The translations under genes were made by a program, and so were the position numbers. This document shows, one piece after another, positions 30,801 through 33,800 of a stretch of 64,000 nt of DNA. Every line of letters starts with the position of its first letter. Position 1 is the first letter of the stretch. The stretch lies in contig JAXDDX010000144.1 in assembly GCA_034670405.1 (NCBI GenBank), forward strand, positions 598,501 to 662,500, read 5' to 3'. Origin of the DNA: Hoplostethus atlanticus. Lineage: Eukaryota > Chordata > Actinopteri > Trachichthyiformes > Trachichthyidae. The notes beneath the pieces were generated by a model. The model did not search any database. It saw nothing but the letters and a program-made list of their open reading frames with translations, and was not told the origin of the DNA.

Positions 30801-33800
30801 AGAATTGCAGGGAATTACAAAATTAATCAGGAGGACCCCAGAACCCCTGACTGAATTTGTATTCTGACCCCCACACTTAAATAAAGTTAAGCGCCCATGG
30901 TAGTAGTACTAGCTGGTCTCTTACCAGAACTAGGTAGCGTAGTCCCAGGGTACCACCCGGAACGTCCTCCCCAGTTGCTTTGTCCATTGATCATCCTGAG
31001 TTTGTCAAACATCCCATCGGCCCCCACTGCCCCCATCTGCTGCTTGTCGCTGGCCAGGTTCCTCAGCACTCGGTTTATTGATGACACCTGCAACCATCGA
31101 ATGCAACAACACAGTCAACACTTTGCTGAAAGGGAAACCTGTTTATCTGCCCTCGCTGTCCAGGTTCCTCTGGAGAGACCTGGCAACACAACGAACAAGG
31201 AAATCAACATTTTATTGGTGATGGAATAAAGCAAAGCTATAACAGCTTGAACAAAAATAATTCAAACCTTGAATGCAACCAGCCTCATCATGCCCATTGA
31301 GGAAAAACATGGAAGAGGTTTCATGAGATCAATCTATCAGTAATTTGACCACTAATTTGATATCTAGCATATTAGTTACACGTCACTGGGTAAAGTCAAA
31401 GGCTTTGTGTAGATGTGACACCCGTTGTGTCAGCACCTCAGCAATTAATTTCTTTTTCTACATGATCATTAAATAATTAAAAAGTGGTGACTACTATGAG
31501 ATGATAGGATGGCTTCCCACATATGGATCCAAGTATAGGATCAGATTACATAAATTGGAGCTACCACACGACCAATTGAGGACCTAAATTAAACCTACTG
31601 CTAGGCAGTTTTAGCATTTTTGATATGCATACCTGAAATTTTATCCATGTCCAGCTTCCATGCACTGCTGCCAACTCGGCGACTTTGTTGCTAGCTCGAA
31701 CAACGTCAGCGACTAGCGACAAACCTAGCAACATTTTCGGACCGTGGGTGAACAATCTTAATGTGTTGACTCCCAAAGTATTTTGGGACAAATCTGCACG
31801 GCTAATGCTGATTTGCGCTACTTGGTTTTCCAAGCCAAAGATGCCTGATGATCACAGCGCTTCCTATACACACTGTAGCCCCTACCCTCAGCTAAGGACG
31901 GGGAGTGTAGCAAATATATTGATATGCAAACCTACAATATTTCAGCAGCCAATAGCTACTTTCCTTGTTGCTCCTGGGTATATTTCTGAACTTCTGTCCC
32001 TGCTTAGTACTGACAGGTCCCTCAGGTCCTCTAATCAGGGGCTTCTGGTGGTCCTAAAGTCCCGGTTAAGACTGGTGGGTGATTGGATTTTCGTCGTGGT
32101 GGAACCGAGAATGTGGGTTAAGTCATTCCCAAAGCATCATTTTCTAAATATTGTCTTAAAACCTATTTTTATTTTTATTTATATTTATGTTTATTTTATT
32201 TGGGCTCTTTTTTCACTTACATCTTAATTTTGTTTCATGCTCTGCCTCCTTTTGTCTTCTTAATCCCAGTATTTTGTAAAGCACTTTGGTATATAAATCA
32301 GGTTGACTTGGCTTGGCTAGTTGTAATAATAGAAGTAGTAGTAGCAACTTACACTGGGTATATTGTCATTAGTGCAGACTCCCTCTGCCAGCAGCCTGTC
32401 TCTGATCTCCCAGGCGAAGATGGATGGGCACTCTCGCTTGTATTGCGCAATCTTGCCCACCACCTCTGGCGTGGCCACCCTGGGTTTACTGCCGCCAATG
32501 GCCCGAGGTCGGATCGAGCCTGTCTCGTAATACCGGCCCAAGATCTTACTCACACAGCCGTTAGAGACCTGGACACAAAGACACCAAACACAAATCACAC
32601 ACATTATTTACCACTGGTCTGTGGTTTAATGTGGTTAATGTTAGGAGGTGTTCAGTGCTTACATTTCCTCTCTCCTGCAGCTGAACCCTAGTGTCAGCTG
32701 GTCTCTACAAAACAAGAGATAAGGAGGTAGATAAAATAAACAAATTTATGCAGTATATTTTATACAGTTTTATTAGCATCACCTGGCTGCCTATAGACAA
32801 GAGGAAGCAATGTAGAGAGCAATATATACAGAATTTTATAAAATACTTTGTTGGCATCAACCTGCCTCTGTCAGAAAGACCCAGGACATATATCAGAATA
32901 CACACAGAATTACTTCATGGAGAATGTGGCAAGCAGGGTGGGGATTGGTTGATGGACTGAACCAGGGATGCATGCCTATATGCCTGGCCTCAAAATCCTA
33001 CAGTCTGCTAAACTTAACCCAACAAGGAACTTTTTTAAAGACTGTGCAGTCCAACCCAAAAGAGAAACAGTAATTTCAGCACTGGGTGTAATTTCTGAAA
33101 TATCGCTTTAAAGATAAATAAGACCATAAACATCAATATATCACCTCTGTATGATATGAGATAGGGAAGTGGAGCACGGCACAGCGTTTTCACCAGTGGT
33201 TCTTAAATGTGGTCCACGGAGGCTGCAGGTTTTCATCCCGACCAAACACTACAGCCGCTGACTGGTTGAAGATGTGTTAATCTGTGAAATCAGCAGCTGT
33301 AGCGTTTGCAGGGATGAGAACCTGCAATCTCTTGGGTCATAATGGCACATGGATGAGAACCACTGCTTCAGACAAAACATTAACATTACAACACATATTA
33401 ACATTAGTGTTAGTATTCATATTTGTGTTTGTACTAGTGCTGGAATTAATACTAACATTAGTATTAGTATTAGTATTGGTATTAATGTTAGTACTAATGC
33501 TAATATTTTATCAGTAGTAATATTAGCATTAGCATCAGTATTAGCATTAGTATTAGTATTAGTATGATGGTAAGTGCGAGCATATAGTAAGTATGAGAAT
33601 TATATTATGTTTATCTATTTATATGCACCTGTTGTGGCAGCTGAACACAACCTGTTCAGTGAGAAACTCAGAAACTGTAGCAAAGTGCCATGTTGATTGT
33701 ATTTATTCATAGGTGGTGATTATAACTGCACAGTGAGTGACTTGCACTCAGAACCCAATATGGCTTCCAGCAATATTTTGGGAGACTTGGACACATGTGA

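Follow-up and report, generated by a model that had tools for sequence, protein, structure and literature searches.

A probable exon 5a homologue in a Pax6.3 gene of Hoplostethus atlanticus

Exon 5a is a short, in-frame cassette of pax6, and Pax6.3, a paralogue of acanthomorph fishes, has been described without it. The available sections of one study report Pax6.3 without exon 5a in medaka, stickleback, fugu, and Tetraodon, and count the missing 5a, together with missing conserved non-coding elements and differing synteny, as one of three arguments for a separate Pax6.3 duplication (Ravi et al, 2013, PMC3554528). Medaka Pax6.3 is likewise given as lacking exon 5a in the sections available of a later paper (Fabian et al, 2015, PMC4488758). 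The 64-kb stretch of Hoplostethus atlanticus DNA analysed here (the window) contains a pax6 gene with a 42-nt block at the place where 5a would be expected. This raises the questions of whether the block is a 5a homologue, whether the gene is a Pax6.3, and whether such a cassette would still be in use.

The pax6 gene and its surroundings

The window, with a GC content of 0.40, contains a complete pax6 gene on its minus strand, with coding exons 3–13 at 51261–24758 (Table 1). Joined together, the coding exons form a single frame with a lone stop at its end and encode 433 aa without the block or 447 aa with it, both counted from the MPQK start. The splice junctions of the remaining pax6 exons are AG/GT. 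Exons 5 and 6 are identical in size to their vertebrate counterparts, which are given as 131 and 216 nt in the accessible text of Fabian et al (2015, PMC4488758).

Table 1. Features of the pax6 gene in the window (positions counted from the first letter of the 64-kb stretch).
Feature	Position	Strand	Domain match
Exon 3, coding part (MPQK start)	51249..51261	-	
Exon 4, MMQN start and fish N-terminal extension	42662..42715	-	
Alternative microexon, 24 nt, in-frame, KVYAVCNEG, between exons 4 and 5	40976..40999	-	
Exon 5, 131 nt, N-terminal part of paired domain	35103..35233	-	
Acceptor side of 5a, polypyrimidine tract and AG	32705..32718	-	
Diverged exon 5a (predicted), 42 nt, phase 0, 14-residue peptide	32663..32704	-	
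Donor side of 5a, GTAAGC	32657..32662	-	
Exon 6, 216 nt, remainder of the first and start of the second part of the paired domain	32353..32568	-	Pfam PAX
Exon 7	30925..31087	-	
Exon 8, homeodomain start	28750..28902	-	
Exon 9, homeodomain	27402..27484	-	
Exon 10, homeodomain end	26410..26560	-	
Exon 11	26156..26265	-	
Exon 12	25370..25511	-	
Exon 13 with stop, protein end MSQYWPRLQ	24758..24843	-	

Two further details of the gene were observed. The microexon peptide recurs unchanged in a Myripristis Pax6 model (P0128) and in closely similar form in Lampris (P0123). Exon 12 is preceded by a second, diverged copy of its acceptor and first codons, which lies at 25625–25581 (minus strand), 107 nt upstream of the exon proper, and would run into a stop after 21 codons if used as an exon.

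Elsewhere in the window, a reverse transcriptase fragment at 52973–53446 on the plus strand (Pfam RVT_1, E 4e-11) is likely a LINE remnant. Open pieces at 14404–15793 on the plus strand resemble a hAT-type transposase by eye, and Pfam returned no match for the three pieces tried from this region. A long open stretch of repeated VGLGHTSNSE-like units at 11781–12347 (minus strand) is apparently a translated tandem repeat. Dnajc24 is expected next to acanthomorph Pax6.3, but neither human DNAJC24 (best E 0.073) nor IMMP1L gave a convincing match within the 64 kb, and the neighbour may lie beyond the window.

The 42-nt block in intron 5

The block is open, has phase 0 at both ends, and lies between an AG (ttgttttgtag) and a GT (gtaagc), with exon 6 beginning 94 nt downstream. 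On re-reading the sequence, the coordinates, length, phase, acceptor, donor, 94-nt gap, and peptide given for it in a preliminary description of this DNA were all found to be exact. It thus has the form of exon 5a, an in-frame, phase-0 cassette of about 36–42 nt between exons 5 (131 nt) and 6 (216 nt), with a consensus acceptor and donor. Scored with a weight table of textbook percentages, the acceptor ranks second among the 147 AGs of the 2,534-nt intron 5 and the donor third among its 137 GTs. The scores themselves (9.6 for the acceptor and 7.6 for the donor) are unremarkable among the nine internal exons, the block included, which range from 5.2 to 11.6 and from 4.0 to 9.0, respectively.

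Five of the 14 residues of the block are identical to the canonical 5a peptide THADAKVQVLDNQN, namely A, D, V, Q, and N; the preliminary description likewise counted five, with A–D and V–Q in place. The best ungapped BLOSUM62 score of the block against five canonical-type 5a peptides from database proteins is 24. Both strands of the window hold 479 AG-42-GT blocks, of which 218 are open, and the highest score among the others is 7. Open 14-mers scoring at least 24 number six of 60,960 in all frames of the window, one of them being the block. The similarity is therefore not unique by itself, but in combination with the 42-nt length, the frame, and the splice sites it is unique in the window. 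We also simulated 3,000 introns (first-order Markov, with the composition and length of intron 5), and a single one held an open AG-42-GT block scoring at least 24. Based on these comparisons, the block is very probably homologous to exon 5a. In a single, distant comparison with the human exon 5a, 22 of 42 bases agree and all five kept residues differ at the third base, a pattern that fits selection on those residues.

The same controls bear on two other origins of the block. It might be no more than an open stretch between an AG and a GT, with no history as an exon, and about 3.4 open AG-42-GT blocks are indeed expected per simulated intron of this length, and five unrelated open 14-mers of the window match the score of 24. 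Those five have no splice sites, however, and the distance between 24 and the 7 of the next block, the one simulated intron in 3,000, and the ranks of both splice sites make coincidence highly improbable. It might instead have originated independently of 5a, as an exon newly formed in this intron. A possible parallel is Pax2.1, for which the available passages describe an exon at the same place whose peptide in cyprinids is unlike that in acanthomorphs (Fabian et al, 2015, PMC4488758), so that one cassette may give way to another. The exact 42-nt length, the five identities in register, and the two similarity controls speak against an unrelated exon here, and we regard it as very improbable. 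After these controls (24 versus 7; 1 of 3,000), an independent new exon and pure chance were both judged unlikely.

Placement of the gene and exon 5a in other fish copies

The closest database relatives of residues 130–415, among the best 120 of 1,844 matches, are acanthomorph Pax-6-like proteins (Siniperca, Centroberyx, and Lampris). In a maximum-likelihood tree of 38 rows, the window gene groups with all 19 Pax6.3 rows (100/100). Within them, Centroberyx, Myripristis, and the sampled percomorphs form a group (95/89) that excludes the window gene, which also stands apart from Lampris and from Polymixia with Merluccius. A second tree of 35 rows agrees, uniting the window gene with seven Pax6.3 rows (100/100), and both trees thus place it in the Pax6.3 clade. 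Similarity controls and trees together bear out the preliminary description of the block as a fast-diverging 5a homologue in a duplicate pax6. Like the acanthomorph Pax6.3 in the available sections of Ravi et al (2013, PMC3554528), the window gene is a second full-length pax6 of this clade; unlike those genes, for which 5a is reported absent, it holds a 5a homologue. The published statement covers four other species.

By best score, 59 of 225 fetched proteins, taken from the best-listed matches, are of Pax6.3 type. The motif ANKI is found in 50 of these 59, ATKI in one (Neosynchiropus), and AAKI in seven (Centroberyx, Lampris, Polymixia, Merluccius, two Myripristis rows, and Lucifuga), with one unreadable at this place. 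Lucifuga, which is absent from both trees, is an early percomorph line. Tree position and motif together suggest that the fish carrying this gene probably belongs to the acanthomorphs, either outside the percomorphs or close to the percomorph base.

None of the 54 Pax6.3-type proteins with a readable exon 5–6 junction (five of the 59 are unreadable there) carries a 5a-like insert: 41 lack any insert, and the inserts of the other 13 do not resemble 5a (best score 13). The Pax6.3-type rows of the near kin Centroberyx, Lampris, Polymixia, and Myripristis are among those without a 5a-like insert. All protein rows are cluster representatives at 90% identity, behind which a 5a-containing isoform could be hidden. 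A full-length query for a 5a-containing Pax6.3 returned, among the best 120 of 149 matches, canonical-type 5a forms, gene-model inserts other than 5a, or no insert, and a 74-residue query gave 25 proteins among the matches listed, none with an insert. The literature searched, with subscription journals mostly outside it, holds no recognised report of 5a in Pax6.3. The earlier caution that a similarity search could miss this 5a is apt, given that 5a has been published as absent from this paralogue in the species studied.

The preliminary description also took the vertebrate 5a peptide to be nearly invariant, and this fails in teleosts, where database proteins contain 5a forms of 12–14 residues, such as THDEVQVLDSEK, SHADDKVHVHNEN, and THADAKVLDNEN. 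The same length range, 12 to 14 aa, is given in the accessible part of PMC6925180. The window block shares with canonical gnathostome PAX6 5a (THADAKVQVLDNQN) its 42 nt, phase 0, position directly upstream of exon 6, and the retained A–D, V–Q, and final N, whereas nine of its 14 residues are changed and it is a predicted exon, in pax6.3. The 5a of teleost Pax6.1, or NCBI Pax-6b (THDEVQVLDSEK and THDDAKVQVLDNEN), is similarly a diverged fish 5a in the same intron; in contrast to the window block, its own TH start and VQVLD region stay clearly alike, and its percomorph form has 12 residues. Fish Pax2.1 exon 2a, as described in the available passages, is also an in-frame cassette, inserted towards the PAI helix 3 end and variable in peptide between fish groups, but it belongs to a different gene and measures 21 nt (Fabian et al, 2015, PMC4488758).

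Outgroup pax6a-type copies have 5a as well, in the form of THGDAKVQVLDNEN in salmonids and SHADDKVHVHNEN in Aplochiton. The Aplochiton Pax-6-like protein (P0068) is the pax6a-type protein nearest the Pax6.3 clade, beside which it groups, and its shortened 5a is already diverged; unlike the window block, this 5a has 13 residues and is nearer the canonical peptide. An Alosa copy (P0069) has the 12-residue 5a THADAKVLDNEN, and P0094 carries a canonical-type 5a inside a longer insert. At the 5a position, an Anabas Pax6 model (P0098) has FTQKSMLVQVVFSTY, which is one of the 13 inserts unlike 5a and the one scoring 13; its TxxxxxVQV is in register, and it may be either an exon forced by the gene model or a further relic of 5a. 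On the pax6a side, the 5a forms can be arranged from THGDAKVQVLDNEN in salmonids through SHADDKVHVHNEN in Aplochiton and the window peptide to none in the percomorph Pax6.3 proteins read, an ordering that holds if Pax6.3 is read as lying within pax6a.

That reading draws on the deeper branches of the tree. The Pax-6b-type rows, the canonical acanthomorph copy included, form one side of a branch (91/90, not starred), and the remaining teleost copies, of pax6a type, form another grouping together with Pax6.3 (93/86, not starred). Pax6.3 nests within teleost pax6a, beside Aplochiton and the osmerid–salmonid copies, which are themselves weakly grouped (88/75). An older origin of Pax6.3 would need the other teleost copies to be united to its exclusion; forcing them together without Pax6.3 cost 12.97 log units (p-AU 0.048), in a marginal test that was done after the tree was seen and is open to long-branch effects. 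The tree may be said to speak, weakly, against the published older origin.

Possible retention of the cassette and its meaning

Judged from its sequence, we consider the block likely to be a true, fast-diverging descendant of exon 5a in pax6.3 that is still an alternative cassette, and its use as an alternative exon is, in itself, rather probable. The main competing explanation is a decaying relic, that is, a 5a homologue no longer spliced in and heading for the absence that the available sections of PMC3554528 and PMC4488758 report in percomorph Pax6.3. An exon on its way to losing function should show change such as that seen here at nine of 14 positions, which counts against a kept cassette, as does the lack of a 5a-like insert in all 54 readable Pax6.3-type proteins. 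Against decay, the length, the frame, and both splice sites are intact.

We simulated unselected decay from the canonical cassette at six divergences between 0.2 and 1.0 (40,000 runs for each), assuming kappa 2 and indels at one tenth of substitutions. At no divergence did more than 1.0% of runs keep length, AG/GT, and frame while scoring 24 or lower. At any score, length, sites, and frame remained intact in 15.3% of runs at a divergence of 0.2, in 6.3% at 0.3, and in 0.05% at 1.0. The simulation, which ignores that the block was chosen for standing out, favours a cassette that is under selection or was only recently lost, and a recent loss would survive easily. We regard the relic as a somewhat unlikely explanation of the block.

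If the block is a working cassette, skipping it would yield the ordinary paired domain in the 433-aa protein. Its inclusion would yield the 447-aa protein, in which ILQ and VSNGC would be separated by 14 residues at a point within or next to helix 3 of the PAI subdomain. The closest solved structure is 6pax, the PAX-6 paired domain, which aligns over the full length of the domain and is gapped precisely where the insert falls. We take the 5a insertion point to be in or beside PAI helix 3, the side being unclear in the passages of PMC4488758. Those passages state that any insertion into the paired domain, even of one residue, alters DNA binding, and the available text of PMC3285655 states that Pax6(5a) binds 5aCON and does not bind P6CON sites, so a switch-off of PAI would be expected upon inclusion. 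Binding by the PAI subdomain would be disabled and that by the RED subdomain left. Inclusion would switch PAI off whatever the letters of the peptide, and peptide-specific effects of 5a would be altered. We propose that the peptide may have drifted because an in-frame insert of roughly this size is what matters, rather than its exact letters.

Exon 5a is itself a known kind of exon, and its homologue is found here in a paralogue reported to lack it. With a 5a homologue in a Pax6.3 gene, a missing 5a drops out of the argument for a separate duplication that is set out in the available sections of Ravi et al (2013, PMC3554528), and the finding is consistent with an origin of Pax6.3 from a pax6 that had 5a. 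One possible history, which we put forward tentatively, is that Pax6.3 is the acanthomorph pax6a ohnologue of the teleost genome duplication and inherited 5a; early acanthomorphs would have kept the cassette, its peptide free to change, and percomorphs would have lost it. If true, what selection preserves in 5a can be the in-frame interruption of PAI rather than the peptide. More generally, cassette exons that are short and evolve fast may be recorded as lost when they are in fact present. If the block is spliced, the switch would have been retained while the peptide was rewritten, and the 5a of pax6.3 would offer a natural test of whether the switch needs the peptide sequence or only an insert.
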